IMG/VR virus record: IMGVR_UViG_3300022839_000103
Span: 1-22,288 of that record
Strand: one strand, 5' to 3'
DNA length: 22,288 nt
DNA from: a virus
The translations under genes and the position numbers were made by a program. Of this stretch, positions 1-19,293 are shown one piece after another; position 1 is the stretch's first letter; each line of letters opens with the position of its first letter. Under the pieces are notes generated by a model. The model searched no databases. It was given only the letters and a program-made list of their open reading frames with translations, and had not been told where the DNA came from.

Positions 1-3000
1 GGGAATCCTAGAGCCTGAGCCGCGAAATCACCGACAGTCATGTCATCATATATAGGGTCTTTTCTCCTAGACCGTATACCACCTTCTCTTGCGTAACGTC
101 CAACTGTGCTACGGTAAGCATTAGTAATACCGGCGGGCATAAGGCTTTCCATACCACGCTCAAAGCTACCGTACTCGCTTGAGTTGAAGTCATCATAGGC
201 ACGTTTGAGTCTAGTGCCTGTACTCAATGCGGGGCCACCCAAGTAGAATCCTAGGCTTTCTTCAAGAGAGGGGTCTTTGTTAAACCTGTTTTCCTGCAAC
301 AACAAGTTACTTAGGCTAACACGCGAGGCTACATCTGTACCCGTGAGTGCAGTTAACCCCCCTTTGTACCAACCTTCACCTAGGTACTTACGTGTTATGG
401 TGCGAGCATCGTCCTCCTCGTTATCTAAGAACATGTTCCATATCATGCTGACCATACCGTATAGCGGAAGCCCCTGCACCCCAGCAAAGAACAACGCGGA
501 TAAGTGAACCCCCATAGCCTGTTTAAGCGCCATGTTACGTAGTTCCTTTCCTTCAGCATCTTTAGCGAACATATTGTCTCCCGCTAGTATGGCAGACTTA
601 ATCATGGTGTAGTACATCTGTAGGCCATAACTCTTATACATCAGCGCCACACGACCGATACCCTGCTGTGAGTAACCTGCCGCAGTTTCTAGTACAGAAC
701 CACCGTTTGTTTCCTGTGCAAAGTACACGGCTTCAGCTACTGCTAATTCCATACGCGCTTCAGAACTACTAGGTACGTCTATGAACTTGGCCTGCACTGC
801 ACTGTAGAACCTCTTATCACCCTTAGCTTCGTGCATAGCATCTAGCTTGTTTAGAGTAAGGTCGTAAGACATCGTTAGGGTAACTTGACGGTTAAATCTT
901 TCTGCTGCGTTGAACATTACAGCGGACAAAGCAGACGTACCATCTAGGAATCTAAGCGCAGGGTTCTTATTCTTTTGTCGTCCCGCATCGTTTACGCCTA
1001 ACTGATCAGCTATTGTAGAGTGATGTATCTGACCCCCGTTCTTAGCCCTTTGTACCAAAGGTATCATGCGGTTGAAGTATTTTATCTTCGCGTCAGCTTC
1101 CGCTTTAGTAGCAGAGGTATCCCGTATTTTCTTTTCTTGGCCTGCTTTAAGAGTGTATACGTCCTTTCGACTTACCACGCCATCCGCATCTGTCGTGCTA
1201 ACTTCTTTGATGTCGTAGTATTCGTCGATAGATATTTTAGAGGAAGTTACAAACTTACCTGCTCTACCCAAGGCTACAGAAGCATCTTTAGCATTAAATT
1301 TACTTGTAAGGTACGGCAGCACCACTAGGGGTATTTGAGACAAGTTAACAAGTGCGGACGAGGCGTTAAAACCAATGGTGTATATAAAGGCTGTCTGGTT
1401 AGCACGTTGGTAGTACTGCTCTGGGCCTTTGTTAGTGGCTCCTTCACGGGCAAACTTAGCACGCCTGTCTAGCTCTCTTTTAACCAGATTAAACGTATTT
1501 TTGTTAACACCCTCGGGAGCGCCTTCTCCATGCTTCAGGTCTATAGCCTTCTCAACTGCACGTATCTCACCGCCATAACGCATCTTCTCTATCTGGGCAC
1601 CTAGATCAAAGCCTTTAGTCTGCATACCTAAGCGAGCGTCTTGTATGTAACCTAACGTGTTCTTACGTCGTTGTAGAGACTTAGCAAAAGAAGTTTCGGG
1701 TAGTGTCTCAATAAACAGTCGCATTACTTGCTCCTGTACTTCCCCTCGCTTATCTTTGGGTACGCTAGCAGCGATAACATCTAACACGTCAGCAACGAAA
1801 GAACCGGCGGGAGGACTTCTGTAGCTAGATGCTTTGGTATCACCCTCGTAAGATTCTACTGTGTCAGCAACGGTAAGGGCATCGTTCTTTACTTCCTTAG
1901 CCGCACTGTCCCGTGCTCCCTCAGTCTCAAACATAAGGAATACTGATTCTTCTCTAAAAGTACCATCGTCGTTTTTAATCTTAGTTGCATACGACAACTT
2001 GTAGTTACCCTGACGAACCAACGGAAAATATACTTCCATAGTGTTAGATGAGATCAGACGCTCGTTCATCTGCTTCTTTAGTTTTATTTTAGAAGCGTTG
2101 TCTTTGCCGTCACCTATCTCGTCAATCTCACGATTGATAACAGCCACGAGGTCTTCGTGCATACGTTTATAGGTATTACGTAACTCGGTAAACTGCTTTC
2201 TACCGCCATCATTTAATTTCTTCCATTGATCTTGATTAGCTTCCCATACTTCAAATAGGTTCCTGTCGTCTTGAGCAGTCTGGTTACCGTATCTCTTTTT
2301 AGCTTCTGCGCGGGTAAGAGTAGGGTCTACCTGATAAATAGTAGCGCCATGCTCTTGGCTATATATAATGTTATCTAGCAACTGCTTCTGTTCTAAGTTC
2401 TTCTTAGCCCACGCATCATAAGCCTCTAATACTTTATTTATCTTCTCGTCAGATTTTTGTATGTTGCCTCGTTGATCTCCAAATAGCTTGTCTAGGTTTA
2501 ACCCTAACTGCCCGAAACCATTGTTTCTTGCTACGTCGCCTAATGCTTGCGAACCAGTTAGTCTCAGTAAGAAGTCTTTAGCTGTCCTATCCGCAGTGCC
2601 GTTTAAAAAGTCTGTAGCACCTTCAAGGAAAGATTTCTTTGGGCCTTCGGACAAACGCTTCTGTATGTCTGTCATGTCGTTAAGTACTTTTCTTACTCCG
2701 TCTTGAGTAGACACCATGTTCATAACAGGATCATTGCTTGTAGCCATGTTGGGAGACAGCATCGCTATAATAGCCGCATCAGCTTCGTCTAGCGCAGAGC
2801 CTACAGGCTTAGTGTCCATGCCGATAAGTCTTCGTACATAGTTAGTGACTGCACGATAGAACCGCTCCAAGGCACTTATATCCTCGCCTTTAGGGTTGAT
2901 AGAGGCTAGCTTACGCTGGAACACAGGGTTACTAAACGCTTCAGCTATGAACTCGTTAAGGTTCTCTGCACCGTACGCTGTATCTAAATACGGCTTAACG

Positions 3001-6000
3001 TCTTTATACAACTTCTCCAACTGCTTAGTTGCTGGGTGAGATTTGTTCTTTAATTGATTAAGCGTAGTAGCGTGCGTAGTCTCATGCAGTAGCGCATGTA
3101 TGGTCAGAGGCATGTTAGAGTTAAGTATTACAGTGTTGATCCTAGGATCGAACAAACCTGCTACGTTACCCTCATCTCCGATTTCGTACCCTTTGTCTTT
3201 TAGACTAGCTTCATTAGCCAATTCTATTTTGGTGGTGCCAGTGTTCTCAGACAACGCTCTAGCTATCTGCTTGACGCGCTTACTCTTAGTGCTTTTTGCA
3301 AGGGACTGTAATGCGGCTTTTAAGTCCCCTTTCTTCAGTAGCGCCTTAACGTCTTTAGGTAGAGCCTCACTCAGTTCCAGCGCAACCTTGGGGTCTAGCT
3401 CCAAGTTAAGCACGTCGATCTTACCACCACCGGCAACGAACTTAGCAGTATCAACCGCTATCCTTGCACGTAATTGATCAGGAGACATATCTTCAGTAAG
3501 AGGTGCGGTTGCATTCTTACCCCTACTGCCTTGTATGTTCTCTATTGCTTGGCTAACTACATCTTCTTTCTTAGTCGCTCCTGATGCTTTTTTCTTGGTA
3601 GCTCTGTCTGCACGGGCAGTAGGGCTAGGCTCGACTTTTGGAGTAGCCTTGGAAGGGGTAGATGTACCAACTACCGTAGCCTGACCACCAGTAGCGGTGT
3701 CTACATCCTGTGCTATCTTAGTTTCGCGTTGCTTTACCTTAGTGTCGTCTCGTTCTTGAGTAGCCCTAGCTTTCGTATCTTTTTCTACATCGGTTGACTT
3801 CTTCTGTTGCTCGACTATGCGGCGATCTATCTCTGCCTTAGCATCGGAGCTTAGATTCTTCTCTATCCACTGCAATGTAGTTTTAGTGTTAGCTCCACCA
3901 GTACCTGCAAACTTAGCTTTCTCGGATGTAGGAGTACCTTTCTGTTCACGGAACTTAGGCGTGTTCTCTGCGATTTCAAAAGCTATAGCCTCAAACGCAT
4001 CGGCAGGGCGCTTAAACCTCTTAATGTAAGTCTGAGCGGTTTGCTCCATACCCTTCTGATCTCGGGGTATAGGCTTAGTAACTAGGTCGGTTAACGCTGT
4101 TACATCATCAGGATTAGTAAACTCTGTGCCACGAGGTACGGCAGTAGGGAACTCAATATCACCCCCTATGTCGGTAGGGGCTTCTTGTGTACTGGTATCA
4201 GCAGGCGCTTCTGTTTTTGCTTCTGCTTTCGGGGCAGTTTTCGCGGGGGGTGTTTTTGGTGCAGCTTTAGGCGTTATAGTAGGTATTGTAATACCTAATC
4301 CTTTTAGCTGCTGGGTAACTTCTTTCGGCAACGGCTGTACGGCACCGGCCTGCGACTCCAAGTCGGCGGTCTTCTTAGTAGGCATACCCGCAACTTTCTG
4401 GCGTTCTGCTATCCTAACGTCAGTCAGAGTAATTTGTTTACCCTCAGCGGGAGTTATCGTGTCTAAAGGGATGTTCTTTTCTGCTGCGTACGCCTCCGCA
4501 GTTTCGGTAGCATTGCGCCTCACGCCTTGTTTCTTAGCGGAAGACTTCGTTTGCATACCGCCTAGGGGCTGCTGCTGTTGAGTTTCTTTAGGCCCACGCT
4601 CCTTAACTTGTGCTTCTAACTGTGCCAGTGCTGTTCTGTTTTCGGTTGCAATAGCGGCATCTCTAGCCTCTGCCTCGGCAACATCTAGGGTGCCTTCAAA
4701 CAGAACAGCGTATTCCTGCTCTATAGCGCGTTTTTCTTCTGCGTCTCTAGCCGCTTGAGCTTCGTCTTCTGCGAGCAAGGCTTCAATATCAGCCGTCTCT
4801 TCTATGTCTCGTATCTGCTCGTCTTCCGCACGGTCTATCATGTCGGGTTGTTCTTTTATCTGGTCATCATCTTCCAGACGCCTTGCTCTCTCGGTCTCAG
4901 CGTCTTGTTCGGCCATAGCATCAGCCATTTCAGCGTCACTCATACCCTCGGGTGCGCGTGCGGCTACTCTCGCAGCTTCTTTTTCTGCCGTTGCTTTTTC
5001 TAGTGGGAATAAGTCACCAGTTTGTCTACGTGCTTGTTCCGCCGCATCATCTTTAACTAGCGAGGCAAGCCCTTGTTCTCTGTCCTGCGCTTCAAGGATA
5101 GCATCACGTTCTGTAGTCCTGCGTGATTCGGCGTCGCCTTGCAACTCTTGTGCGCGTAAGTATACCCGCGCTTCAGGGTCATCTATTGGCACGTTTTCAC
5201 GTAGGGAGCCATCAGGCATGGGTATGTTAACGGTTTCAGGTAAAGCAGGTAGGCCAAATACTTCTTCTACAGCTTGTTCATCAGACTTGTCATCTCCCTC
5301 TATTGCGCCGTCGGTACCTACAGACTTACCGCCTCTACGCCCCGCAATAACGTCTGCAAGGGCTTGTATAATGGCACCTGCACCGCCGCCTATGGTAGCT
5401 TCGTCAAGTACACCTGCGTCGATTAATTCTGCTTCAGCGTCATACCCACGGGCGTTAAGATTCTGTAATATTGCGGCAGCGGCTTCCTGTGCGCCTTCAG
5501 CTACGCCCGTAGTTGCTACACTACGAATGCGGTTTTTAATACCCTTTAAGTCATTAGCGTCAACTTTTTCTAGTACTTTAGCTACGCCGGGAATTTGAAG
5601 TCCTTTGGCGATTCTACCTAGGGGAGATAGTTCTAGCAGACCAATAGCTGTACCACGGAACGTAACAGAACTTCTTTCTTCTTCGGTAGCACCAAAATCG
5701 CGTGCGCGTTCGCTTGCTTCACCAGCACCAGCACCACCGGCAATAGCAGCGGCAGCGGGTAAGGCGGCAGGGCCAAGTAATGCGGTAGGCAGTAAGGCAC
5801 CAATAGAACCAATGCCAGAGGCTAGCTTATAGGTTAGTGATTCTTTGTCTCCACCTTCGGGACGGAAGGATGAGGCTACAGATTGAATTTTGTCGCGGGC
5901 TTTAAGTTCTTCTTCCTCTTCGAGTAGGGCAGCGCCACCTAAAGCAGCGGACTCGTACATGCCAATAGCACCGGAGGCTAGACCTTTACCTACGTTCTCA

Positions 6001-6131
6001 AAGAACCCTGCGCCACCTCCTCCTTTTCCTACTTCTTGCCGTAGTCTCTCGGTAAGAATCTCTACAACTTCGTAGTCTCTTTCCGCATACGCTTTATCAA
6101 TACCTTTTGACAGGTCATCTATATAAGACAT
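1..6131 (-). CDS. Giant polyvalent virion protein with zincin and PLxRFG-type regions (C-terminus beyond left edge)
   Basis: An uninterrupted frame of 2043 codons runs off the left edge with no stop. The start at 6131 has an AAGGA Shine-Dalgarno about nine bases upstream and lies 12 bases after the stop of the preceding gene. Regions in order: a glycine/alanine-rich hydrophobic stretch (about 104-140); an EGAQEAAAA-type module (about 208-250); a charged, probably helical region (about 300-520); a Pro/Ala/Thr/Lys-rich linker (about 620-660); a zinc-peptidase motif HETTH (1016-1020) with downstream Glu1060 and Glu1064; the motif PLVRQG (1370-1375), a variant of PLxRFG; and a long helical C-terminal half containing NASSALVNLSQIPLV and, at the edge, a DFAAQALGF motif. 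Known: zincin and PLxRFG regions are associated with very large phage 'polyvalent' proteins delivered with DNA. Inferred: an internal virion protein ejected into the host. No lytic transglycosylase motif was recognised. The conserved ALGF end suggests only a short missing tail. Confidence 0.9.
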   Translation of the reverse strand, partial: MSYIDDLSKGIDKAYAERDYEVVEILTERLRQEVGKGGGGAGFFENVGKGLASGAIGMYESAALGGAALLEEEEELKARDKIQSVASSFRPEGGDKESLTYKLASGIGSIGALLPTALLGPAALPAAAAIAGGAGAGEASERARDFGATEEERSSVTFRGTAIGLLELSPLGRIAKGLQIPGVAKVLEKVDANDLKGIKNRIRSVATTGVAEGAQEAAAAILQNLNARGYDAEAELIDAGVLDEATIGGGAGAIIQALADVIAGRRGGKSVGTDGAIEGDDKSDEQAVEEVFGLPALPETVNIPMPDGSLRENVPIDDPEARVYLRAQELQGDAESRRTTERDAILEAQDREQGLASLVKDDAAEQARRQTGDLFPLEKATAEKEAARVAARAPEGMSDAEMADAMAEQDAETERARRLEDDDQIKEQPDMIDRAEDEQIRDIEETADIEALLAEDEAQAARDAEEKRAIEQEYAVLFEGTLDVAEAEARDAAIATENRTALAQLEAQVKERGPKETQQQQPLGGMQTKSSAKKQGVRRNATETAEAYAAEKNIPLDTITPAEGKQITLTDVRIAERQKVAGMPTKKTADLESQAGAVQPLPKEVTQQLKGLGITIPTITPKAAPKTPPAKTAPKAEAKTEAPADTSTQEAPTDIGGDIEFPTAVPRGTEFTNPDDVTALTDLVTKPIPRDQKGMEQTAQTYIKRFKRPADAFEAIAFEIAENTPKFREQKGTPTSEKAKFAGTGGANTKTTLQWIEKNLSSDAKAEIDRRIVEQQKKSTDVEKDTKARATQERDDTKVKQRETKIAQDVDTATGGQATVVGTSTPSKATPKVEPSPTARADRATKKKASGATKKEDVVSQAIENIQGSRGKNATAPLTEDMSPDQLRARIAVDTAKFVAGGGKIDVLNLELDPKVALELSEALPKDVKALLKKGDLKAALQSLAKSTKSKRVKQIARALSENTGTTKIELANEASLKDKGYEIGDEGNVAGLFDPRINTVILNSNMPLTIHALLHETTHATTLNQLKNKSHPATKQLEKLYKDVKPYLDTAYGAENLNEFIAEAFSNPVFQRKLASINPKGEDISALERFYRAVTNYVRRLIGMDTKPVGSALDEADAAIIAMLSPNMATSNDPVMNMVSTQDGVRKVLNDMTDIQKRLSEGPKKSFLEGATDFLNGTADRTAKDFLLRLTGSQALGDVARNNGFGQLGLNLDKLFGDQRGNIQKSDEKINKVLEAYDAWAKKNLEQKQLLDNIIYSQEHGATIYQVDPTLTRAEAKKRYGNQTAQDDRNLFEVWEANQDQWKKLNDGGRKQFTELRNTYKRMHEDLVAVINREIDEIGDGKDNASKIKLKKQMNERLISSNTMEVYFPLVRQGNYKLSYATKIKNDDGTFREESVFLMFETEGARDSAAKEVKNDALTVADTVESYEGDTKASSYRSPPAGSFVADVLDVIAASVPKDKRGEVQEQVMRLFIETLPETSFAKSLQRRKNTLGYIQDARLGMQTKGFDLGAQIEKMRYGGEIRAVEKAIDLKHGEGAPEGVNKNTFNLVKRELDRRAKFAREGATNKGPEQYYQRANQTAFIYTIGFNASSALVNLSQIPLVVLPYLTSKFNAKDASVALGRAGKFVTSSKISIDEYYDIKEVSTTDADGVVSRKDVYTLKAGQEKKIRDTSATKAEADAKIKYFNRMIPLVQRAKNGGQIHHSTIADQLGVNDAGRQKNKNPALRFLDGTSALSAVMFNAAERFNRQVTLTMSYDLTLNKLDAMHEAKGDKRFYSAVQAKFIDVPSSSEARMELAVAEAVYFAQETNGGSVLETAAGYSQQGIGRVALMYKSYGLQMYYTMIKSAILAGDNMFAKDAEGKELRNMALKQAMGVHLSALFFAGVQGLPLYGMVSMIWNMFLDNEEDDARTITRKYLGEGWYKGGLTALTGTDVASRVSLSNLLLQENRFNKDPSLEESLGFYLGGPALSTGTRLKRAYDDFNSSEYGSFERGMESLMPAGITNAYRSTVGRYAREGGIRSRRKDPIYDDMTVGDFAAQALGF
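2940..3086 (-). other. Zincin (HExxH) active-site segment inside the giant left-edge protein
   Basis: Codons at 3086-3072 read His-Glu-Thr-Thr-His (residues 1016-1020), preceded by hydrophobic residues as in helix-borne HExxH motifs. About 40 residues later comes NEFIAEAF, with Glu1060 and Glu1064 as candidates for the third zinc ligand, as in gluzincin-like peptidases. The ligand assignment is inference from motif spacing. Confidence 0.75.
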
Positions 6132-6143
6132 ACAACTAAATCC

Positions 6144-8219
6144 TTATGGTTTAGGAGGAGGCGCTAGTGCATTTGCTCTTTGTAGCGCGGTGCCGCTTTG
6201 AGAAGCACTTTGAGAAGCCACTTGAGAAGTCCCTTGAGAAGTCCCTTGAGAAGTTCCTAGTTTTTGTTGCACCATAGTTTGTAGTTGCGTAATCTTAGTA
6301 TTAGAGTAGCTACCTTGATCTCTAAGCATCTTTATAATTTCTTCGTGTATAGTAATAATATCATCGACTTTAGTTTTATCCTCTATCACTTGGAAAACAC
6401 CTTCCATATCCTTTTGCTGCGCTTTCGCTAGTTTGACTTGTTCAGGGGTGGAGTCTTTGTCGTATACTATCTTATTTAACCGCATCATATCAGGCTGAAG
6501 AGCTTTAAAATGTTCTTCTCTTAGGGTGGTATTCTGCTGTATTAGCTTCGTTAAAGAACTGGAAACTTGCTCTATACTAGCTTGTTCTTGTATCAGTTTT
6601 TGTAGGTTAGCCTGCGAACTTACTTTCAGAGCGTCAATTTTATTCTTAATACCGTTCTGATTTTGGTTATACATTCTATCGGCTTCTTTTTGATACATCT
6701 CCAAATCGCCTTTAGTAACATTCGCCATCAAGTCCATACCAGCAGCGACATCCTCTGTGTACAACTTCAAGGTATCCGCTGCTCCCTTGTTTATTGTGTC
6801 TAGTACGGCGGACGTAGCTTCTTTGTTCTTAACGAACATATCTCTCTGCTCGGTAATAACGGCGCGTTGTCTTTTTGATACATTATCATCAAACTTACCT
6901 CTAGCGATGCTAGCCCCACGGCCAGTACCACCTGAAATAAGCCCTCTTATGCCCGCATTAGTGCGTTCCCTAGCCACTGCTTCAGGGTCTAACTGTGCCT
7001 TGTCCAATTCTTTTTTTCGCGTCAAGTACTCACCCAAACCTTCTTCGTATTTCTTGACGCCGTAACCGCCTTTTTCTACGTCATCAGAGGCCAGCCTAGC
7101 TAGTGTAGCCTCACTTTTAACTTCAGGGTTTACGTCTATACGGTCTTCTACCTTACCCATAAAGCTATCACCCAGTGCTGTACTGAGTTGTTTTTTGCTT
7201 ATGGCGCTAGTGTCAGGTGCAGGAGTGTTAAGCACGGACTGTAGTTGTTGGTCTATACTCATATCAGAAGAAGCACCGAAACCCGCAGGTGGTTGTCCCG
7301 CAGGTGGTTGTCCCGCAGGTGCGGCGAGCACAGTGCCAGCCCCAACAAGGGGAGCACCAATACCCGTAGTGGAGGGGTCAGGAGCATTAGTCTTAGCTAT
7401 CTGCTCTACTGCGGAAGGCTTAATCCCCGCTATACCTTTTATTTTTTGAGCCGCAGCAGCGGCAGAACTTTTAGCACTTTCTGCATCTTGGACTTTTTGG
7501 GCTTTATCTTCTTCCGTAGGATTCAAACGCTTACGGATAGCTTCACTCTTTTCAGCTCGTATTTTGGGGTCTTGCGCCTCTCGTACAGTCTTAACAATAG
7601 GCATCTCGGGTACGCCTGCGGCAGTAAACTCTTCACGTTGCTTTACGTATTCTTGTTGTATCTTAGCGTCAAGTTCTTTTCTTTGCTCTGGACGCATAGC
7701 CCTGTAGTCTTTATAGGATATACCTATCGCTTTTAATGCTTGCTCTAGCCTACTACCTTTAGCTTCTACTCCGCCGCCAGCGTCATACCCAATAATTCCG
7801 CCTTGAGCCATTTTTTGCATGTTAGGACGAGGCTGACTAGCGATACCTTGAGGAGCGCCTTGAGGCATAGGAGGCCGTTGGCCTTGGGGTTTCTGAGGAG
7901 GCATACCCATAGCTTGTTGCTTCTGTTGAGCTTGCTTTTGCTTCTGCCCAAGAACACCAGCTACTTGCCCAGCCATTTCGTCCTTGTTCATACCCACTAA
8001 CTGCTGCTCGTATTGCTCTGCTATAGTGCTTGGAGTCTGTTCAGCTTTTAGCGCCATTTCCCTAGAAGCGGCTTCTTTTTCAGTTTTCAGCTTCTGCATG
8101 GCGAGCAAATCCATCAACTCTTGATTCTGAGAGTATCTTTTTTGTAATGCTTGAGGGTTACCTCTATACGCATCTGCTTTTTGCTCTACTAACTTATCTA
8201 TGCCGCCTGCTTGTAACAT
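6144..8219 (-). CDS. Putative internal virion / ejection protein, 691 aa
   Basis: The start at 8219 has a strong AGGAG Shine-Dalgarno (TTAGGAGATACCC before ATG). The N-terminal 100 residues are helical and Gln/Lys-rich, with NPQALQKRYSQNQELMDLLA and TIAEQYEQQL, a pattern I associate with marine-phage virion proteins. A Pro/Gln/Met-rich linker (about 105-135) leads to MAQGGIIGYDAGGG (137-150). The middle is charged and helical, with a Pro-Pro-Ala-Gly-Gln repeat near 300-312. The C-terminal half is predicted mostly coiled helix and ends with a Thr-Ser-Gln/Ala-Ser-Gln repeat (655-675) and a Pro/Lys tail. There is no signal peptide, membrane segment or enzymatic motif. Its position between two other large proteins and the giant zincin protein suggests an internal virion component. 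A tail-assembly or scaffold role is the alternative. No exact family could be named. Confidence 0.85.
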   Translation of the reverse strand: MLQAGGIDKLVEQKADAYRGNPQALQKRYSQNQELMDLLAMQKLKTEKEAASREMALKAEQTPSTIAEQYEQQLVGMNKDEMAGQVAGVLGQKQKQAQQKQQAMGMPPQKPQGQRPPMPQGAPQGIASQPRPNMQKMAQGGIIGYDAGGGVEAKGSRLEQALKAIGISYKDYRAMRPEQRKELDAKIQQEYVKQREEFTAAGVPEMPIVKTVREAQDPKIRAEKSEAIRKRLNPTEEDKAQKVQDAESAKSSAAAAAQKIKGIAGIKPSAVEQIAKTNAPDPSTTGIGAPLVGAGTVLAAPAGQPPAGQPPAGFGASSDMSIDQQLQSVLNTPAPDTSAISKKQLSTALGDSFMGKVEDRIDVNPEVKSEATLARLASDDVEKGGYGVKKYEEGLGEYLTRKKELDKAQLDPEAVARERTNAGIRGLISGGTGRGASIARGKFDDNVSKRQRAVITEQRDMFVKNKEATSAVLDTINKGAADTLKLYTEDVAAGMDLMANVTKGDLEMYQKEADRMYNQNQNGIKNKIDALKVSSQANLQKLIQEQASIEQVSSSLTKLIQQNTTLREEHFKALQPDMMRLNKIVYDKDSTPEQVKLAKAQQKDMEGVFQVIEDKTKVDDIITIHEEIIKMLRDQGSYSNTKITQLQTMVQQKLGTSQGTSQGTSQVASQSASQSGTALQRANALAPPPKP
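6196..6255 (-). repeat. Five 12-bp tandem units encoding Ser-Gln-rich repeats
   Basis: Five consecutive 12-base units share the core TTGAGAAG (plus strand). On the coding strand they give alternating Gly-Thr-Ser-Gln, Val-Ala-Ser-Gln and Ser-Ala-Ser-Gln tetrapeptides near the C-terminus of the 691-residue protein. The length is a multiple of three, so copy-number change keeps the frame. Confidence 0.9.
7282..7320 (-). repeat. 15-bp tandem repeat encoding Pro-Ala-Gly-Gln-Pro
   Basis: Two perfect copies of CCCGCAGGTGGTTGT plus nine bases of a third (plus strand). They produce a Gln-Pro-Pro-Ala-Gly repeat in the middle of the 691-residue protein, probably a flexible linker. Confidence 0.9.
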
Positions 8220-8243
8220 GGGTATCTCCTAAAACTTTAAATT

Positions 8244-10001
8244 CTATTGCGAGTATTTTGCCGCTATTGCCGCCGGAGTAATACTAGGGTCAGCCGCATA
8301 TTCAGCCTCTACTTCCGCTGCGGTCGCGCCTCCAAACTGCCATTCACCAGTACCCTGAGAACCTCCGCCTAAATACTTGTTGTATATATCTTCTATGGTC
8401 TCTGCTGTACCTGCGTACTGTGCTGCGGTACTAGGGGCGTTGTAAGAAACTGATTGTGCTTCTAGTGGCAACCCTTGCAGTAGTGACTGCATATACTGTA
8501 CTTGCTTGTAAGGGAAGTCACGTTCTTCTTTAAACTGTGCGTAATCTGCGGCCATACCTTCGCTTTCGATGCCTCGCTGAGTAGCGCCTGCACCTTCTTG
8601 CCTAGCGAGTACGTCAAACCCGTACTGATTACTCTTGTCTCGATCTAAGTTAAACTGCTCTCTCGCCCTGTCATATGCAGAGGCGTAGCCCTTACCTGTT
8701 ATATCTGCTAGGTTAGTCTGTAGGTTGCGTTGATTTTCCATATCCATAAGAGCCTGACGTGAACCACCGAACGCCCCTGCCTGCGTCATGCGTCCTGCAT
8801 TAGCAATACGATCTATCTCTGACTGACGTCGCGCTTCCTCTAGTTGCGGGTTAAGCGAAGACATTAAGTATGGGTTCATACCTGCTTGAGCGTCTGCTGC
8901 GGTAAAAGCGTTAACTCCCATATTAGTAGGAGCTTGTAGACTACCAATACCTGCAAACGCCTGCTGCTGTAGCCCTGACTCTCCGGCACTAAGCGGGCCT
9001 TGGTAGGCTTGATACGCCTGATTACCCAGTGCTTTACCTTGTCCGAGCATGTCAGTTACATAGTCGCCAGCCCAGCTAGATAAAGAACTTTCTTTACCTG
9101 CATATTCTCCTACACTAGGATCAACACCCGTTGTAGTGTCTCCTCCAACTCCCGCTGCTGTATTCGTGGCAGTGGTGGTCGTGGCAGGGGTGGTCGTGGC
9201 AGGGGTGGTCGTGGCAGGGGTGGTCGGGACGGCTGATACAGCACCTGTAGCTTGGAAGTTAGTAGCTTTAGGTTGGCGTTGGTAGACAGAACCACCGTAG
9301 TTATACGCGGCTATTCCACCACCTTGAGCCATAGTAGGCATAAACTTGTTAGGGTCTATTTGTTTACCTTGTTCTGGATTACCCGTACGTTCCATACGTA
9401 CATTGTTCATCATACCGTGCAACTGGTCTGCACCCGCATCAGAGTTACCGTTGCCTAGGTGACTTACTACGTCAGCAGGAATAACGAACTCGCCGTCACT
9501 AAGACGGGCTTCTTGCTTACCATCAATGCTTGCTGGCACATCGTCAGCCATGCCATCAGTCTTACCACCTAGGTAGTAACCGTTATGTGCAGAGGCAATA
9601 CCACCCATAGCTAGACCTTGAGGGGCTTGAGGATTCTGGGCCTGTCCTAACTCCCGTGCCTGCGTTTGGGCCGCTGCCCGTGCTTCCTCTACCGTAGGAG
9701 TTGGCGTGTCAGGGCGTTGAGCAAACTGATTGTCTGAGAAGTATCTACGGCCTTGGCTTCCCGGCCTGCGGGCAGGCTGTCCTTCGGTAGGTTGCTGCAT
9801 AGGTACTCGTTCGCGCACAGCTTGTAGTTCAGGAATCTTGCCCTGATAACCTACTTTTGGGATGTCTGGTTGGAAGAATTGGTTAAGTCCACTAGTTGCG
9901 GCACCTTGTAAAGCCCCACTAACGAAATCGCTATTAAAAAACCCTTCTGCCGTACCGCCGTCAGCCGTAAGAAAGTTTACTGTATCTGAATACCAGCCCA
10001 T
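8244..10001 (-). CDS. Putative internal virion / ejection protein, 585 aa
   Basis: The start ATG at 10001 overlaps the upstream stop by one base (TAATG), with GGAG seven bases before it, so translation is probably coupled to the 1907-residue gene. Regions: a short N-terminal domain (1-75); a Gly-Gly-Ile motif (AMGGIASAHNGYYLGG, 131-146); a segment with LSDGEFVIPADVV (167-179), which resembles a motif seen in phage tail tape-measure and virion proteins; a second Gly-Gly-Ile motif (228-237); a Thr/Pro/Ala linker (259-285); and a helical C-terminal domain (about 340-545). That last domain contains NPYLMSSLNPQLEEARRQ, FGGSRQALM and EERDFPYKQVQYMQSLLQG, which I recognise as a recurrent marine-phage pattern. 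No transmembrane helix or catalytic motif is evident. I infer an internal or tail-associated virion protein working with its two larger neighbours. The pattern recognition is from memory and the function is not proven. Confidence 0.87.
   Translation of the reverse strand: MGWYSDTVNFLTADGGTAEGFFNSDFVSGALQGAATSGLNQFFQPDIPKVGYQGKIPELQAVRERVPMQQPTEGQPARRPGSQGRRYFSDNQFAQRPDTPTPTVEEARAAAQTQARELGQAQNPQAPQGLAMGGIASAHNGYYLGGKTDGMADDVPASIDGKQEARLSDGEFVIPADVVSHLGNGNSDAGADQLHGMMNNVRMERTGNPEQGKQIDPNKFMPTMAQGGGIAAYNYGGSVYQRQPKATNFQATGAVSAVPTTPATTTPATTTPATTTTATNTAAGVGGDTTTGVDPSVGEYAGKESSLSSWAGDYVTDMLGQGKALGNQAYQAYQGPLSAGESGLQQQAFAGIGSLQAPTNMGVNAFTAADAQAGMNPYLMSSLNPQLEEARRQSEIDRIANAGRMTQAGAFGGSRQALMDMENQRNLQTNLADITGKGYASAYDRAREQFNLDRDKSNQYGFDVLARQEGAGATQRGIESEGMAADYAQFKEERDFPYKQVQYMQSLLQGLPLEAQSVSYNAPSTAAQYAGTAETIEDIYNKYLGGGSQGTGEWQFGGATAAEVEAEYAADPSITPAAIAAKYSQ
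9176..9220 (-). repeat. Three perfect 15-bp tandem repeats (Thr-Pro-Ala-Thr-Thr)
   Basis: TGGTCGTGGCAGGGG (plus strand) occurs three times without change and is flanked by degenerate copies from about 9164 to 9226. It encodes the Thr-Pro-Ala-Thr-Thr linker of the 585-residue protein. Perfect identity between copies suggests recent slippage or recombination. Confidence 0.93.
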
Positions 10002-13000
10002 TAGTCTTCTCCAATTATCTTTAATAGTCTATCTGTACTGTCTTTGATTATACCACCTGACGCTTTTCTAACTCCAAATGGACTTTGCCCAAGAGGACTA
10101 GAACTAGGGCCGTACCCTCCAAATGGAGTGCCATAAGCCTGCTCTTGTTGTTGGTTAGCGAATATAGTATCAAAACCATACTGCGGGCCGATTTTCGCTA
10201 GTCCCATCTTCTTAGTAGTAGCTACTGTAGGCTGCGCGGCTTGCATCTCCGCTACCCTACGTATTTCGTCATCAAACTTGTTGAGTCTTTGGTTCTGGTC
10301 AATCTGAGTTTGAACCTCAAACTGCCGTTGTTGTTCTAACTCTTGCTCTTCTTTAAACTGCTGTTCAGCTTCTTGCTTTTGCTGTGCGGCTATTGCATCG
10401 TTGTAGGCATACAAACCAGTGGATGCGAACTTACCGCCTAATGCTACTTCATTGCCACCAAAGGCTCCCTGCACAAGGGCTTGGTCAGCCGCATCAATTA
10501 CACCATCGTTGTTAACATCATACTGCAATTGTTGGTCAGTGGGAACAAAAGAAGCCCGATCAGCCTCGCTAAGTACTTCTTGTTGTGCTAGGTAATCCGC
10601 GTAAAAATCTACATCTGTTGCAGTAATGTCACCGGCAGGCTTACCTACAAAGTTAGCGACATTATCTATTTCTAATCCAAGATCAGCCATACCCTCGTCA
10701 AAACGAGTTATCAGGGTTTCTTCAGTCTCACCTAACTCCGTGAGTATTTCTTCTTTAGTCTTACCTAGATCGGTAGATACATCGTCTATTGCTTTAGAAA
10801 GGGCTTCATCCGCAGTTAAGTTCTGGTCTTGGTACTCCTTCATCTTATACAAGATGTCGGTTTCCATGTCGCCCAGTTTAGTAGTTACATCCGCGAGTCC
10901 CGTTTCAAACTCTTCACGTAAGTTATCTTCTGTAGTACCTAAAGCAGTTAGTATAGCTTCTTCAGTTTCACCCAAATCACCTGCGACTTTAGCAATAGCT
11001 TCTTCTATGCTATCACCTTGAGCTAATAGGTCTTCTATCTCTTTGTATATACCTGTAGCATCAGCAGATTCATCCTCTTCTGTATTAGGGTCATCTTCTA
11101 CTGCACGGGTACCTACCCTACCAGCAATAGCATCTCTTTCACCCGTTGCTATGGCATCTCTAGCTACAGCAGATTCTTCCGCCAACCGTGCAGCTTCTGC
11201 TGCGGCTAATCTAGCGGCTTCTTGCGCGGCTTCTCTATCAGCTATATCCGCTAATCTAGCTTCTTCAGCTAATCTATCTGCTTCTTCTTGGGCTAATCTA
11301 GCTTCTTCAGCCAACCGTGCAGCTTCTTCTTCAGCAGCTAATCTATCGGCTTCTTCAGCAGCCAATCTAGTGGCTTCTTCTTCAGCGGCCAATCTATCTG
11401 CTTCTTCTTCAGCAGCTAATCTATCTGCTTCTTCTTGAGCTAACCTATCTGCTTCTTCTTGAGCTAACTTATCTGCTTCGGCTTGCGCTGCGGCTGCTTC
11501 TTCTTCTTGAGCTAACCTATCTGCTTCTTCTTGAGCTAACCTATCTATTTCTATTTGAGGATCAACATCAGAAGGAGGCCCGGAAGTAATAGTGCCATCG
11601 TTGCTTATCCATACACGACCGCCGTATGGCCCCAAGTCTACCCACCTACCTCCTGCCTCTTCCTCCGCAGCTAACCTATCTGCTTCTATTTGAGCTGCTT
11701 CTTCTTCAGCGGCCAATCTATCTGCTTCTTCTTCAGCGGCTAATCTATCTGCTTCTATTTTAGCGAGTCTTTCTGCTTCGGCTTGAGCTGCGGCTTCAGC
11801 TTCGGCGGCTAACCTATCTGCTTCGGCTTGGGCTGCGGCTGCTTCAGCGGCTAATCTATCTGCTTCTGCTTGTGTGGCGGCTTCAGCGGCTAAAGCGGCT
11901 AACCTATCTGCTTCTGCTTGTGCTTCAGCGGCTAACCTATCTGCTTCGGCTTCAGCGGCTAATCTATCTGCTTCTATTTGAGGATCAACAGGGTCAGCAG
12001 AGGGGGGCGTTTCAGCATCGGTATACGGGCTGCTAGGGTTAGGGTCTTGGTTGTTAGGTATGCCATCCCCGTCACTGTCGTTATCATTGCCATAGGCCAT
12101 TGCCCAGTACGAAGCTAACTCATCATCTAAGTCGGCATCGGGGGTTGATCCTGTGGTATTGGTAACGTCTTCAGGTGTGTAAGGTAGCCCTAGCGATTCT
12201 AGTGCATCAACAGCTTCGGCAGTGCTTGTGTAAACTTCGTCGTACAAGAAGTTCATTGCATCGGTGGCAACTTGTGGGTCGCCCAAGAAATTGTTTAGCT
12301 TGGTCTGTAATTCTTCTTGGCTGTAGTTTTCGGAGTTGTTTAGAAGCTCTAACGCATCAGGGTTATTACTTATTACTAGGTCGGATACAAAGTCACCTGT
12401 AGACGCTATGCTGTATATGCCTCCAGATATAGTACCTCCTACTATCCCTCCTAACGCAGCGGCGGCTCCAACATCCCCCATTACATCAATATCAGGGTCT
12501 ATTAGCGATAGCCTTCCTGACGTGTATCCGGTAGCCGCGCCTTCTTCAAAGGCTTCTGTTACGCCTTCTTTAACAGTTATTGTAGCGCCTTCTGACAACC
12601 GCCTTGATATTTCGTTGTACAGCCCTTTAAACTCTACAGGAGGCTTTCCGTTTATAAACAACTTCTCAAGTGCCATGCCACCTACGGCAAGAGAACCTAT
12701 AGCCATGACTCCTGCTACGTTACCGGAATTAATAGCTAAATTTAGGGCATACTCCCGTGCTTTTATATCTTGCGCAGCTAAGAAAGCATCTCTAGCAGGG
12801 CCAGATAATTCTAATATGTCTGCTTCTTTACCCGCCATCTTCATAAAGGTAGCGTGGCCTTGCTCGTACGCACCACCTGCGGTGCCTCCCCATGCTTCTG
12901 CTACATCAGTGGCTGCGGCAGCGGTAAGACCTGCTTTTCTACCTATTGCTTGTGCGGCTTCTTGCGATAGTTCCTTTGTAAGTCCAGCACCTAAGACTTT

Positions 13001-15724
13001 TGCCGTAGCTCGGCCTGCTAGAGTAGCTAGACCGCCCACTAATAACGGCGCTGCTTCCTGCATGAACTCTACGGATACGTATTCTCCAAAGAATGCTGCG
13101 GGGTGGTTAGCTGCGGTTTTAAATATACCCTGCGCACCTTCCCAAAGACTCTTCTTACTCTCGTCTCCAGATACATACTCACCGTTTTCGTCGTAGACTA
13201 TAGGAGTATTAGGGTCGTCTTTACGCTCTAGCCCCGCTTGGAACTCCCGCATACCGCCAACGGCTTCTTTGTATCCTGCGGTGTTAGCGCCTTCTCCAAT
13301 CTTAGCCATATCAGCAGCAAACTTACCCGCTGCGGTACCCGCAGGGTCAGAACCAAACGCGGTAGCAAAGCCATTAAACGATTCGATTATCCCTGCGGTT
13401 GCTCGTATACCGTTAGCGTACGCATTCTGAACAGCTTCGCTAGCAGGCGCGGTGTCTTCATCACCTTGTAGGTAGGTAGCTCCGTCTGCCAGTGCCTGTA
13501 ATAACCAGTCAGGTGCGGGGGTAGCCCCTGTGTCTGGGTTTGAAAGGTTGTTATCGTTTACTACGTCAGTAAAGGCTTGAGGGTCGTTTTCTGCTAAATC
13601 TTGCAGGGTGTCGTTTCCAGACCCAATCCCCGCGTTAGGGTTAGCTGCGTTTACTGCATCTATGTCTACATCAGGTACGTCCATTACGTTCATACGGTTG
13701 CCATCAGCATCCATATAGAACTGCTCGCCTGTCTCTGAGTCTGTCTGAACTATGTCTCCTAAATGTTCATTCCAGTGAGATTCCGTAGGTACATTCGTCC
13801 AAACGCGTTGTCCTGTGTCAGGGTCTATTACTAGTTCTGCCTTACCGTCGCGTATATCTGCGTTGGTTACTCCTTCAGCTTTACCAAACGTACTAGAAGT
13901 AGAAGAATACTCGTAGTCCCAGCTACCGTCATTATTTTGTGTAGCTTTAAAGAACTCTTCGCCCGTACCATCGGGGTTGTTAATAGAGCTTAGTAAGCCT
14001 TGTACAGCGTTCTGTTCGGGTATGTCTGATATGCTTCCCGACCCAGCCATAGTAGTAAGTTTTTCGCTTATAGTTTTTCTTTGGGCATCAGTTAACTGAG
14101 AGGCATCTAACCCTATTGTTTTTGCGGCAGCATTTATTACGCCATTTACCGCCGCAGAGTTCTGTGCCGTAAGAGTAGTCTGGTTAGAAGGTAGGTTGCT
14201 AAACAATCCTTCGGTTAAATAGTGGTCGTACGCCTCTTCTTTAGTTATACCGTTCTGCTCGGCGTAGAACTCAGCGTCAAAATCAGGGCTTATGTTTTCA
14301 ACTGTGGCTTGATTAATACCGGCAAACGCAGGCGCTAAAGCCCCGTTAAGTTCTTGAGTAGACTCCTCTAACGTAGCATAAGTCTCAGTGTAATTATCTA
14401 CGGCTGTTTGGTAATCCGCAGCAGTGCTGTCATATAAAGGGTTTAACACCTCTAATCTAGGGGCAAGCTCGTTAGTCACTAATTCCTGAAACTTCGCTTC
14501 GTAGATAAGTACATTATCCTGTGCGAGTTCTAACCTAGTTCTTTCTATCCTAGACATACGCATAGGGCCATCAGAACCTTGTAGGATTTTTTGCGGTATA
14601 CCTTTTAAGCGAAGCAGTTCTTCAGACCCTTCTTTAATCTGTTGGGCAATGTCGTTTATCTCATCTACAACGGCAGTATGCGCATCTACGGCTCCTTCTA
14701 CCAATAGCCCTTGATCGTTTAAGGTTGCAAACTTACCCGTTACTCTGTCCCACGCGTCTCCAAACTCTTGTTGGAATGTACCCTCGTTTAAAGCCTTTAC
14801 GCTCGCATAACCAATCTGTCTGGCCAGACTAACCATAAATGCTTCTGACACGTCTCCTTCAGTCATAGCGACATTCAGGGCATTTTGTACGGATACAGTC
14901 AGCATCTTGGTATTAAACAGAGCGTTATCGTCGCCTACATAGTCCCCTACGAGGTCTGACACTACTTTCGTGGTAACAACCGCAGACGAGATTATGCCCG
15001 CCATACGTCTTTCGTTAATCTCTCCAGTAGCTAGCTGATCAGTAACACCCTGCTGCACTAAATCTCTAACTATACTACCTACGGACTGGGATTCGTCTCC
15101 AGATATTACTTTGCCGTCGTCGTCATAGACTATAGGAGTGTTAGGATCGTCTTCTCTAAACTCACCTAACTCTTCTAGTTTGTCTAGTGCCCCGCCTGTA
15201 CGGTCATTAATCTCTCCAAGGACTCTACCAACTCCGACACTCACACCCCCCGACAAAAATGCGTCCAAAGGGTCTTGTCCCGTTATAACTGCTCCGATAG
15301 CTTCTCTAGTACCTGCGGTAACTGCTTCGGTTACAAACGCACTTACAGCTTCATTGGATATTACGCTACCTACTGACTCCCCAACTCCCGCTGCAAATTC
15401 TCCTGCTACGTCGCCAGCTTGCATAGACACATACGATACAGCAGCAGCCTTCAAAGCATCGCCAATATTACCGCCTTCATCTATAGCATCTGCGCCCTCA
15501 ATTAAAGGTAAAGCCCACGCAGCTTGCCCTGTAGCTACGGCTACAGCTTTAAGTACGGCTTTTACAGGGTCGTCAATGATCGCCTGTATCTGATCTTCTA
15601 CCGTCTTAATAACAGGCTGAAATATTTCGTCGTCTAACCAAGAACCTACGTCTTTTATGGGTTCCCAAATTTCATCGTCGATCCAACTTCCTATGTCTTT
15701 AATGGCATCTACTACAAAACTCAT
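10001..15724 (-). CDS. Giant modular virion protein with membrane-like segments, EF-hand loops and long Ala/Glu-rich repeat, 1907 aa
   Basis: The start at 15724 has GGAG ten bases upstream and lies two bases after the stop of the 151-residue gene. Regions: an amphipathic tandem repeat (10-40); Ala/Gly-rich hydrophobic stretches (about 55-175); a DDPNTPIVYD linker (192); a segment FDAEFYAEQNG with HYLTEGLF (about 478-512), like a repeat seen in bacterial surface proteins; a second DDPNTPIVYD (836); hydrophobic segments near 885-910, 1002-1018 and 1083-1101, with EGVTEAFEEGAA near 1052; a calcium-type loop DSDGDGIPNNQD (1216-1227); an Ala/Glu/Asp/Arg/Leu helical repeat (1247-about 1515); a third DDPNT (1544); repeated DLGxTxEEIL units (about 1570-1690); a canonical EF-hand loop (1736-1747); a Gln/Glu-rich helix; and a C-terminal ASGGII motif. 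No catalytic motif was found. I infer an ejected internal virion protein that inserts in or spans the cell envelope; a tail tape-measure or adhesin role is less likely but possible. Confidence 0.88.
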   Translation of the reverse strand: MSFVVDAIKDIGSWIDDEIWEPIKDVGSWLDDEIFQPVIKTVEDQIQAIIDDPVKAVLKAVAVATGQAAWALPLIEGADAIDEGGNIGDALKAAAVSYVSMQAGDVAGEFAAGVGESVGSVISNEAVSAFVTEAVTAGTREAIGAVITGQDPLDAFLSGGVSVGVGRVLGEINDRTGGALDKLEELGEFREDDPNTPIVYDDDGKVISGDESQSVGSIVRDLVQQGVTDQLATGEINERRMAGIISSAVVTTKVVSDLVGDYVGDDNALFNTKMLTVSVQNALNVAMTEGDVSEAFMVSLARQIGYASVKALNEGTFQQEFGDAWDRVTGKFATLNDQGLLVEGAVDAHTAVVDEINDIAQQIKEGSEELLRLKGIPQKILQGSDGPMRMSRIERTRLELAQDNVLIYEAKFQELVTNELAPRLEVLNPLYDSTAADYQTAVDNYTETYATLEESTQELNGALAPAFAGINQATVENISPDFDAEFYAEQNGITKEEAYDHYLTEGLFSNLPSNQTTLTAQNSAAVNGVINAAAKTIGLDASQLTDAQRKTISEKLTTMAGSGSISDIPEQNAVQGLLSSINNPDGTGEEFFKATQNNDGSWDYEYSSTSSTFGKAEGVTNADIRDGKAELVIDPDTGQRVWTNVPTESHWNEHLGDIVQTDSETGEQFYMDADGNRMNVMDVPDVDIDAVNAANPNAGIGSGNDTLQDLAENDPQAFTDVVNDNNLSNPDTGATPAPDWLLQALADGATYLQGDEDTAPASEAVQNAYANGIRATAGIIESFNGFATAFGSDPAGTAAGKFAADMAKIGEGANTAGYKEAVGGMREFQAGLERKDDPNTPIVYDENGEYVSGDESKKSLWEGAQGIFKTAANHPAAFFGEYVSVEFMQEAAPLLVGGLATLAGRATAKVLGAGLTKELSQEAAQAIGRKAGLTAAAATDVAEAWGGTAGGAYEQGHATFMKMAGKEADILELSGPARDAFLAAQDIKAREYALNLAINSGNVAGVMAIGSLAVGGMALEKLFINGKPPVEFKGLYNEISRRLSEGATITVKEGVTEAFEEGAATGYTSGRLSLIDPDIDVMGDVGAAAALGGIVGGTISGGIYSIASTGDFVSDLVISNNPDALELLNNSENYSQEELQTKLNNFLGDPQVATDAMNFLYDEVYTSTAEAVDALESLGLPYTPEDVTNTTGSTPDADLDDELASYWAMAYGNDNDSDGDGIPNNQDPNPSSPYTDAETPPSADPVDPQIEADRLAAEAEADRLAAEAQAEADRLAALAAEAATQAEADRLAAEAAAAQAEADRLAAEAEAAAQAEAERLAKIEADRLAAEEEADRLAAEEEAAQIEADRLAAEEEAGGRWVDLGPYGGRVWISNDGTITSGPPSDVDPQIEIDRLAQEEADRLAQEEEAAAAQAEADKLAQEEADRLAQEEADRLAAEEEADRLAAEEEATRLAAEEADRLAAEEEAARLAEEARLAQEEADRLAEEARLADIADREAAQEAARLAAAEAARLAEESAVARDAIATGERDAIAGRVGTRAVEDDPNTEEDESADATGIYKEIEDLLAQGDSIEEAIAKVAGDLGETEEAILTALGTTEDNLREEFETGLADVTTKLGDMETDILYKMKEYQDQNLTADEALSKAIDDVSTDLGKTKEEILTELGETEETLITRFDEGMADLGLEIDNVANFVGKPAGDITATDVDFYADYLAQQEVLSEADRASFVPTDQQLQYDVNNDGVIDAADQALVQGAFGGNEVALGGKFASTGLYAYNDAIAAQQKQEAEQQFKEEQELEQQRQFEVQTQIDQNQRLNKFDDEIRRVAEMQAAQPTVATTKKMGLAKIGPQYGFDTIFANQQQEQAYGTPFGGYGPSSSPLGQSPFGVRKASGGIIKDSTDRLLKIIGED
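11170..11986 (-). repeat. About 270-residue Ala-Glu-Ala-Asp-Arg-Leu repeat array with internal insert
   Basis: Coding strand units of the form (E/Q)EADRLAAEE recur dozens of times at residues 1247-1515 of the 1907-residue protein; the plus-strand DNA shows recurring 'gctaatctatctgcttcttc' variants. Two blocks each start with DPQIE (Asp1247 and Asp1388), so the array looks duplicated. Between them lies a non-helical insert of about 30 residues (near 1357-1386) with RWVDLGPYGGRVW and NDGTI. Such sequence is expected to form a long single helix or coiled coil. Confidence 0.93.
13161..13220 (-). repeat. Dispersed 60-bp coding repeat, copy 2 (DDPNTPIVYD linker)
   Basis: This segment encodes DDPNTPIVYDENGEYVSGDES (21 residues from Asp836; the core is DDPNTPIVYD...SGDES). 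It closely matches about 15090-15151, where the same linker begins at Asp192. The 3-prime codons for the DDPNTPIVYD core are nearly identical at DNA level. A truncated third version, DDPNT, lies near 11080-11095 (Asp1544). Confidence 0.85.
15090..15151 (-). repeat. Dispersed 60-bp coding repeat, copy 1 (DDPNTPIVYD linker)
   Basis: First occurrence of the acidic linker (Asp192 onwards) in the 1907-residue protein. It shares the TCGTCTCCAGATA and ACTATAGGAGT plus-strand blocks with the copy at 13161-13220, about 1.9 kb away. Edges are approximate. Confidence 0.82.
15605..15697 (-). repeat. N-terminal tandem amphipathic repeat in the 1907-aa protein
   Basis: Residues 10-24 (DIGSWIDDEIWEPIK) and 25-40 (DVGSWLDDEIFQPVIK) are consecutive imperfect copies. 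Alternating Trp/Ile/Leu/Phe and acidic residues suggest paired amphipathic helices. The DNA copies are diverged, so the duplication is old. Confidence 0.85.
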
Positions 15725-15725
15725 A

Positions 15726-16181
15726 CTAAGACTCCATCTCAGGTATTAGCACGAACACCGCGTACTTATCGTCTTCGGTAATACCTACATGGATATTGCC
15801 GCCAGCAGGAGTAATTAAATCTTTTAGCTCTTTTAGTACGGGCATTAACTTCTCACCATAAGATTTATCAAATTGCACGACATAATGCGTTATACCTTTT
15901 TCTTGTAGGTACTCTACATATTGCAACATGTTAGCGACAAAGTTTTCAGCGGTGTCCACGTTAAACACTCTGCCCATCATCTTAGTGCCACCCTTACGGC
16001 TGTGCCCACCGAATACTGTGTTACCAAATTGCACAACACTAGCGTTAGGCATGGCTAATTCTTGCGCTACGGATACCATAGCGGCTTTTATAGGGATGTC
16101 TCCCGTACCTACGTTTTCAGCGAAACGCATGAGTACTTCGTACCTAGGAAGTTTTTTCTTCTTGCTGTCGTAAGTCTTCAT
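15726..16181 (-). CDS. Hypothetical phage protein, 151 aa
   Basis: The start at 16181 follows an AAGGG Shine-Dalgarno, and the stop lies two bases before the start of the 1907-residue gene. The protein is a compact alpha/beta sequence with a basic N-terminus (KKKKLPRYEVL), the segments VVQFGNTVFGGH and VFNVDTAENFVANML, and a beta-like C-terminal end (IHVGITEDDKYAVFVLI). It has no signal peptide, transmembrane helix or cysteine cluster. I do not recognise a family with confidence. Its position between a beta-rich virion protein and the giant ejection-like proteins suggests an assembly factor or small virion component, but nothing in the sequence proves a role. Confidence 0.85.
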   Translation of the reverse strand: MKTYDSKKKKLPRYEVLMRFAENVGTGDIPIKAAMVSVAQELAMPNASVVQFGNTVFGGHSRKGGTKMMGRVFNVDTAENFVANMLQYVEYLQEKGITHYVVQFDKSYGEKLMPVLKELKDLITPAGGNIHVGITEDDKYAVFVLIPEMES

Positions 16182-18940: not shown

Positions 18941-19291
18941 CTAGTAGCACCAACACATTGGCTCAGTCTTACGAGTGTCAACGTGTACGAAGGTTTTTGC
19001 AACCCCCACGGACATTCCCATAGCTGACGCATGTTTTACTATAGCTAGGCGTTGTGCGCCTCCAGATACTTTAATATCAGCGGCTATGCCTTGTGCATGA
19101 GTTCCTAATTTTTTACCTGCCGCAACCTTTGCAGCTTCTATACTATGGTTAGGTGACCTGTACCCGCTATTAATTATAAACGGGAAGTCACAGACCTCAC
19201 GCAAATGCTCTAGTACTTTAAGGAACCCAGTGTCCATAGCGTTTTCGCCAGTTTCTTGGCAATCAAACTCTCCTATTTTAAAGTACTTCAT
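18941..19291 (-). CDS. M15-type peptidoglycan peptidase (endolysin-like), 116 aa
   Basis: The motif order matches the Peptidase_M15_3 / D-Ala-D-Ala carboxypeptidase-like family: SGYRSPNHS (42-50), THAQGIAAD (64-72) with zinc ligands His65 and Asp72, and FVHVDTR (101-107) with His103 as third ligand. The protein is a single catalytic domain of usual length with no signal peptide, so it would need the holin to reach the periplasm. It should cleave cross-link or stem peptides of peptidoglycan. The start at 19291 has GGAG ten bases upstream. It lies two bases after a membrane-protein gene and close to the GTA-type holin, which makes a lysis role likely. A virion-associated wall-opening role is the alternative, since tail genes follow directly. 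Confidence 0.92.
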   Translation of the reverse strand: MKYFKIGEFDCQETGENAMDTGFLKVLEHLREVCDFPFIINSGYRSPNHSIEAAKVAAGKKLGTHAQGIAADIKVSGGAQRLAIVKHASAMGMSVGVAKTFVHVDTRKTEPMCWCY

Positions 19292-19293
19292 TT

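Follow-up and report, generated by a model that had tools for sequence, protein, structure and literature searches.

Four large consecutive genes of a podovirus-like viral fragment: a probable ejection-protein set with an exchangeable N-terminal tag

Four consecutive genes that dominate a viral DNA fragment most probably encode the internal (ejection) protein set of a podovirus. The fragment, here called the window, is the whole of a linear 22,288-base IMG/VR virus record, and its four genes are designated P4, P3, P2 and P1. The ejection-set reading draws on the position of the block after a nozzle gene, membership of P1 among the PLxRFG/polyvalent proteins, homology of its zincin to that of gp16-type ejection proteins, predicted-fold matches, and the DarB-type module of P4. 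If true, it would link polyvalent/DarB-like injected proteins with gp16-type ejectosome proteins, two seemingly separate literatures, through a common zincin and a hydrophobic module placed in different proteins of different phages. The N-terminus of P1 is an exchangeable tag, co-swapped with part of P2.

The first-pass annotation had described four large, tightly spaced minus-strand ORFs covering about 70% of the window with one TAATG junction, and the ORF coordinates confirmed this layout.

10001..15724, minus strand: P4, 1907 aa
8244..10001, minus strand: P3, 585 aa
6144..8219, minus strand: P2, 691 aa
3..6131, minus strand: P1, at least 2043 aa, running off the end of the window

Together, the four span positions 1-15724 (70.5% of the window). 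P4 and P3 meet at CTAATGG (TAATG, 1-base overlap), and the remaining intergenic gaps measure 24 and 12 bases. A contig 100% identical across the region holds the complete P1 gene (ORF L022:8810-15265, 2151 aa), so the window copy is short by only ~108 aa. Scans of IMG/VR contigs found loci for P4 (15), P3 (best 80 of 198) and P1 (28). The order P7-P6-P5-P4-P3-P2-P1 was repeated among relatives, with homologues of each of P1-P4 in dozens of contigs. Values of dN/dS were 0.23-0.50 against close relatives and, where computable, 0.12-0.20 against one more distant relative, dS being saturated for P4 in the distant pair. The conserved order and low dN/dS indicate that P1-P4 are real genes, and by this substitution pattern the block is under purifying selection. 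A scan of genome contigs for a prophage relative of the window phage found none.

The genes preceding the block place it in a podoviral virion operon.

17096..18931, minus strand: P7, stabilization/nozzle-type virion protein (phrog_3287, E 1.1e-70), with homologues in DSL-LC04, Pag-Yong1 and HTVC027P
16191..17096, minus strand: P6, phrog_8198 (function not known), E 2.3e-46
15726..16181, minus strand: P5, 151 aa, conserved, between P6 and P4, without known family

Homologues of P7 carry stabilization or needle-head annotations, and the presence of this nozzle-type protein assigns the block to a podovirus. In a 58-kb relative (G001), the order is terminase, portal, GroES-like gene, capsid, Pam1-type adaptor, a long fibre-type ORF, small genes, P7, P6 (P5) and P4-P1. 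A 43-kb relative (G010) has a G001-like order, the terminase being given for G001. Past P4-P1, both carry opposite-strand genes, one of them a helicase, and their capsid protein is 63-70% identical to those of DSL-LC04, Pag-Yong1 and HTVC027P. In the structural region of the relatives, the larger ORFs included a recognisable adaptor and nozzle but no recognisable gene for a tail tube or sheath, which argues for a podovirus without a tail tube. The window phage would belong to a DSL-LC04/HTVC027P-like podovirus lineage. The layout is also that of phiKMV, where tubular A and a tail protein are followed by gp35, gp36 and gp37. Coming directly after the nozzle region of a podoviral operon, P1-P4 sit in the T7-like gp14-gp16 slot.

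Two minor features of this region were also recorded. At the P5 position of G001, no ORF of at least 120 aa is listed. Within the virion operon, positions 18941-20111 hold lysis-type genes (M15-type peptidase, holin-like) between fibre and nozzle, as in DSL-LC04; these calls come from comparison with the DSL-LC04 order, for the stretch between the end of the S74 fibre and P7.

The gene of P1 comes last and is the largest, preceded by the nozzle gene and the smaller genes of the set. The following parts were marked in it.

5322..6011, minus strand: hydrophobic glycine-rich module, predicted membrane-active, residues ~41-270, conserved in the family
2682..3131, minus strand: zincin metallopeptidase domain, residues ~1001-1150, with HExxH at 3072-3086
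2061..2417, minus strand: LPD39 (large polyvalent protein associated domain 39; Pfam PF18858, E 6.7e-8, above cut-off)
3..671, minus strand: C-terminal part of the tail-700/PLxRFG domain (NF032893), truncated by the window edge

Complete P1 matched NCBIfam NF032893 (tail-700, PLxRFG) with 257.6 bits (cut-off 100, E 2.5e-76), the best stretch being residues 1821-2134, and all 11 of 11 longer relatives also scored above the cut-off. P1 combines a zincin with LPD39 in a phage virion-gene neighbourhood, the combination of MPTase and LPD39 seen in polyvalent proteins (Iyer et al. 2017, PMC5512222). Unlike those proteins, P1 has just one recognisable enzymatic domain, the zincin, LPD39 being "potentially enzymatic". 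Residues H1016, E1017 and H1020 of the HExxH motif, together with E1064, were invariant in an alignment of relatives (20 of 20).

The zincin connects P1 to structurally characterised ejection proteins. Searched as a profile, residues 960-2151 matched through the zincin to 9sfn_G ("internal virion protein", 1337 aa; E 4.4e-5) and to 8vb2, the PhiM1 tetrameric ejection protein gp48 (TEP; E 1.3e-3). Against phiKMV gp37 alone the zincin gave a probability of 95.5, rising to 97 (E 3e-11) against an eight-member gp37 family profile; outside the zincin, a sequence relation to gp37 was not detectable (probability <1). On these profile matches, the P1 zincin is homologous to that of the phiKMV/PhiM1 gp16-type ejection proteins. 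An AF2 model of residues 960-2151 (pLDDT 78, pTM 0.70) had no match among PDB chains at E up to 0.001. In BFVD it matched other polyvalent proteins, as well as CRP-5 internal virion protein D (E 2e-10), and two core proteins of the phiKMV type, from Ab05 (2.9e-9) and RSB3 (8e-8); for these named ejection proteins the Foldseek probability was 1.00 but TM-scores were 0.23-0.36.

As with P1, the gene for a gp16-type protein (T7 gp16, phiKMV gp37, PhiM1 TEP gp48) closes its ejection operon and is the largest in it. The zincin homology covers phiKMV and PhiM1 (probability 97), with T7 itself unmatched. P1 differs in being nearly twice as long, in homology that is not detectable beyond the zincin, and in the absence of an SLT domain (in T7 gp16 an N-terminal lytic transglycosylase), for which PHROG, Pfam and NCBIfam searches of P1 gave no match. 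None of P1-P4 showed a recognisable murein hydrolase domain. The link between PLxRFG proteins and the gp16-type ejectosome through the zincin appears to be new: Iyer et al. 2017 (PMC5512222) do not mention gp16, and the statement extends to the part of the wider literature that was searched.

One published label may need revision in this light. The region of PhiM1 gp48 matched by P1 overlaps the authors' "endolysin-like" domain inserted in the hub (PMC11440229); by the P1 profile, residues 353-546 of 8vb2 chain A overlap an HExxH zincin-type domain. This domain may be better read as a peptidase than as a murein hydrolase.

P1 has relatives among other phage giants. The P1 family profile matched VPAG_00062 of douglas 12A4 (3026 aa) nearly end to end, and larger members occupy the same operon position in SopranoGao (4369 aa) and Skulduggery (3695 aa). 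In all three phages the NF032893/LPD-type C-terminal part was matched directly. More broadly, the PLxRFG/DarB-like giants of Bcep22-, Lasta- and Pavtok-type podoviruses (JC1 gp69, SopranoGao_6, BcepIL02 gp70) share giant size and a late position in the virion operon. The likeness has bounds: BcepIL02 gp70 was barely matched by the P1 profile (probability 5), and BcepIL02 gp63, gp66, gp68 and gp69 gave no match to the P2, P3, P4 and P7 profiles. Unlike the DarB-like giants, P1 has no transglycosylase, helicase or methylase domain.

P1 could accordingly be viewed as mainly an injected DarB-like host-takeover or anti-restriction effector carried in the head, leaving the conduit to P2-P4. Its place in the polyvalent family (PMC5512222), the DarB-like antirestriction annotations of its relatives, and the packaging and delivery of DarB by phage P1 all fit such a role. 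We consider this unlikely as the main function, for two reasons. Pfam and NCBIfam searches found no SNF2/HepA helicase or adenine methylase in P1, nor did Pfam in 20 relatives, which sets P1 apart from the DarB-like giants. P1 also lies in the gp16 slot and carries a zincin common to structural ejectosome proteins. We lean towards a gp16-like role for P1, not that of an effector alone; a host-entry effector role is possible.

P4, the largest complete protein of the window block, carries a module known from these same giants.

12425..13123, minus strand: hydrophobic module, residues ~868-1100, with E1057 invariant
11150..11983, minus strand: low-complexity helical array (ADRLAAEE repeats), residues ~1248-1525, with internal repeats
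10484..10519, minus strand: EF-hand/dockerin-like loop DVNNDGVIDAAD, a putative Ca2+ site, residues 1736-1747

PHROG and Pfam (above cut-off) gave no family for P4, and tblastn found no counterpart in 50,697 phage records. By hhalign, its module matched that of the DarB-like giants (SopranoGao_6 residues 377-600) with a probability of 96.4 over 190 columns (E 1.1e-9, a single-pair value), while 21 reversed or shuffled controls gave at most 0.5%. The DarB-type module is present in 23 phage records. By this comparison, the P4 module is homologous to that of the DarB-like giants, carried here by a separate 1907-aa protein. The N-terminal hydrophobic module of P1 matched the end of the DarB-type module more weakly (probability 82, E 1e-5, likewise a single-pair value, 51 columns; controls ≤2.8%). 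The window phage would thus have in two proteins, P4 and P1, what Bcep22-type phages have in one. Compared directly, the P1 N-terminal and P4 modules gave weak evidence of a duplication (probability 16-21); that reading was set aside, and we claim a link solely via the DarB-type intermediate.

Complete homologues of P4 range from 1452 to 3111 aa, and the helical/coiled array, poorly conserved with low occupancy in family columns, explains part of this variation. In the loop, D1736, D1740 and D1747 are nearly invariant, the Dockerin_1 match falling below cut-off. The predicted P4 model was of low quality (pTM 0.34), and the P4 profile found coiled-coil-type matches or nothing in the PDB. As far as we checked, P4 is a new family of giant proteins. 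All the features listed in the first-pass annotation were present: hydrophobic segments, a helical array, calcium loops and a metallopeptidase, the HExxH of the last being invariant in 20 of 20 relatives.

P3 is the best conserved of the four proteins (mean column identity 45%) and consists of two conserved modules with a linker of low complexity between them. The modules are fused in 44 loci and encoded by two genes in 51 (loci not de-replicated). P3 was matched in Pag-Yong1, DSL-LC04, HTVC027P and CRP-901; its halves are consecutive genes in Pag-Yong1 and neighbouring genes in DSL-LC04 and HTVC027P. The linker (9146-9283) is a second small variable cassette relative to G010, at the point where other members have two separate genes. 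P2 is conserved in its N-terminal part; a GGIxG(Y/F)xxGG motif comes next, and then a variable C-terminal stretch that gave coiled-coil-like matches. Family profiles of P2 and P3 gave no link to T7 gp14/gp15 or P22 gp7/gp20 in PDB and PHROG, the PDB yielding coiled-coil-type matches or nothing. Solely from gene position, P2 and P3 would take part in a DNA conduit.

P3 is also where a tail reading has to be weighed, in which P3 or P4 would be a tail tape-measure or an external tail/fibre protein. A homologue in the slot of the first P3 module (P3a) is annotated "tail tape measure" in DSL-LC04, and the GEFVIPADVV motif of P3 presumably recalls tape-measure C-termini. We regard this reading as very improbable. 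A check for tape-measure homology, raised by the first-pass annotation as a point against an ejection role, recognised neither a tube nor a sheath gene in the relatives' larger ORFs and gave no PHROG tape-measure match for P3 or P4, and the hydrophobic module of P4 is one that belongs to giant injected proteins. The DSL-LC04 label itself is probably a misannotation, because DSL-LC04 looks like a podovirus. Its "tail tape measure protein" (L002:16132-18411) ends in the P3a module.

The first-pass annotation had raised the possibility that the set plays the part of the T7 and P22 ejection proteins. Position, the P1 family, the zincin, the fold matches and the P4 module favour this; no sequence homology of P2 or P3 to T7 gp14/gp15 or P22 gp7/gp20 was detected. 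By analogy, the P1-P4 products would be virion proteins. From purified virions of JC1, 51 unique peptides of gp69 (4515 aa) were identified, along with the upstream gp64, gp67 and gp68 (PMC9144972); virion proteomics was found for no member of the window-phage lineage. Phage N4 ejects a polymerase of ~3500 aa (PMC12633501). The N4/DEV virion RNA polymerase set (Schitoviridae) likewise pairs a giant multidomain ejected protein bearing a zincin with smaller partners, but P1 has no RNA polymerase domain and homology to the partners was not detected. Unprecedented size, as the suggestion of a far larger delivery apparatus might be taken, was rejected on comparison with N4 and JC1 gp69, which provide single ejected or injected proteins of 3500-4500 aa. 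Giant injected proteins are already known, and the ejection idea is right in kind, not in rarity. What is new, as far as checked, is the P4 family, the separation of the module and the tag.

In the mechanism we propose, P1-P4 would be packed into the head. Upon adsorption they would exit via the nozzle (P7), ahead of the DNA or together with it. The hydrophobic modules of P4 and P1 would insert into the envelope, P2 and P3 would help form the conduit, and P1, in the T7/phiKMV-type gp16 slot and with part of the gp16 domains, would go in last. Its zincin would process P1 itself, its partners or a host target. During head loading, the C-terminal part of P2 would read the first ~38 residues of P1 as an address tag. 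The sequence comparisons themselves show the gene order, the family of P1, the homologies of its zincin and of the P4 module, and that the tag can be exchanged; we infer from them packaging and ejection, insertion into the membrane, proteolysis and what the tag does.

The tag was delineated by comparison of the window with G010.

6018..6131, minus strand: P1 N-terminal tag, type A, helical, P1 residues 1-38; candidate packaging/ejection signal
6017..7596, no strand assigned: exchange cassette, P2 residues ~209-691 plus P1 residues 1-38, from blastn and sliding identity of the window against G010

The two sequences are 98.8-99.2% identical (97% in the P2 N-terminal part) except at 6017-7596 and 9146-9283. 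Identity drops sharply at 6017, and the cassette sequences are unrelated. The tag is therefore exchangeable and was swapped together with part of P2. Members of the P1 family have a homologous body preceded by ~40 residues of unrelated types: type A follows the helical pattern AxxAGDxxxAxxLxxxI, and type B the pattern YEVxGPDGxxYxVEGPEGATDxQII.

An ordinary recombination block, with its edge at the P1 tag by chance and tags that have no addressing role, is a possible account of this exchange. One sharply bounded event was mapped, and because the segments adjoin, linkage alone could give both the co-exchange and a Mantel correlation. Over 43 loci, tag similarity correlated with P2 C-terminal similarity once the effects of the P1 body and of the module were taken out (partial r 0.52, p 0.001; distant pairs 0.44), a Mantel result confounded by physical linkage. 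Chance is less readily reconciled with the family-wide difference of tag types ahead of the homologous P1 body, or with the P2 C-terminal part tracking the tag more closely than the next P1 module (0.52 vs 0.38; 0.48 vs 0.22 for the last 150 aa). It also leaves aside the recurrence of the same ~35-residue tags at the start of six phage proteins that otherwise differ.

In a search of every phage record, the 40-residue type-B tag gave five matches (E 1e-3 to 0.4) and the type-A tag two, in records of equal length (E 0.5); these are individually weak by E-value, and the evidence lies in their consistent N-terminal position and operon slot. Six distinct cases were inspected, five starting at the first residue of the gene and one at residue 6. 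The tagged proteins comprise a lytic transglycosylase, a "DNA injection protein", the product of the gene after the AH02 "P22-like injection translocase", a 3145-aa giant and two others. In the giant, the following segment resembles the DarB-type module (probability 74.5). One of the six cases is in a record labelled Myoviridae.

For DarB of phage P1, the first 30 residues are enough to package a reporter (PMC9024508). Given this precedent and the recurrence of tags at N-termini in the ejection slot, we tentatively propose that the P1 tag is an addressing signal for packaging or ejection, possibly read by P2. A broader conjecture, held at less than even confidence, is that the N-termini of podoviral ejection proteins bear address tags of ~35 residues that can replace one another and fall into two or more unrelated types. 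The ejection protein encoded just before would read each tag through a cognate docking region and so load the giant into the head, and unrelated cargo (P22-like injection proteins, transglycosylases, polyvalent proteins of 2000-3000 aa) could be swapped behind one tag. P4 would be a new giant membrane-active ejection family with the DarB-type module at its core. If true, a portable N-terminal loading tag would make the selection and packaging of podovirus ejection proteins directly testable. At the six tag starts (L160:3501, L161:3501, L162:3501, L163:2486, L164:2501 and L165:2501), each start codon overlaps the preceding stop.
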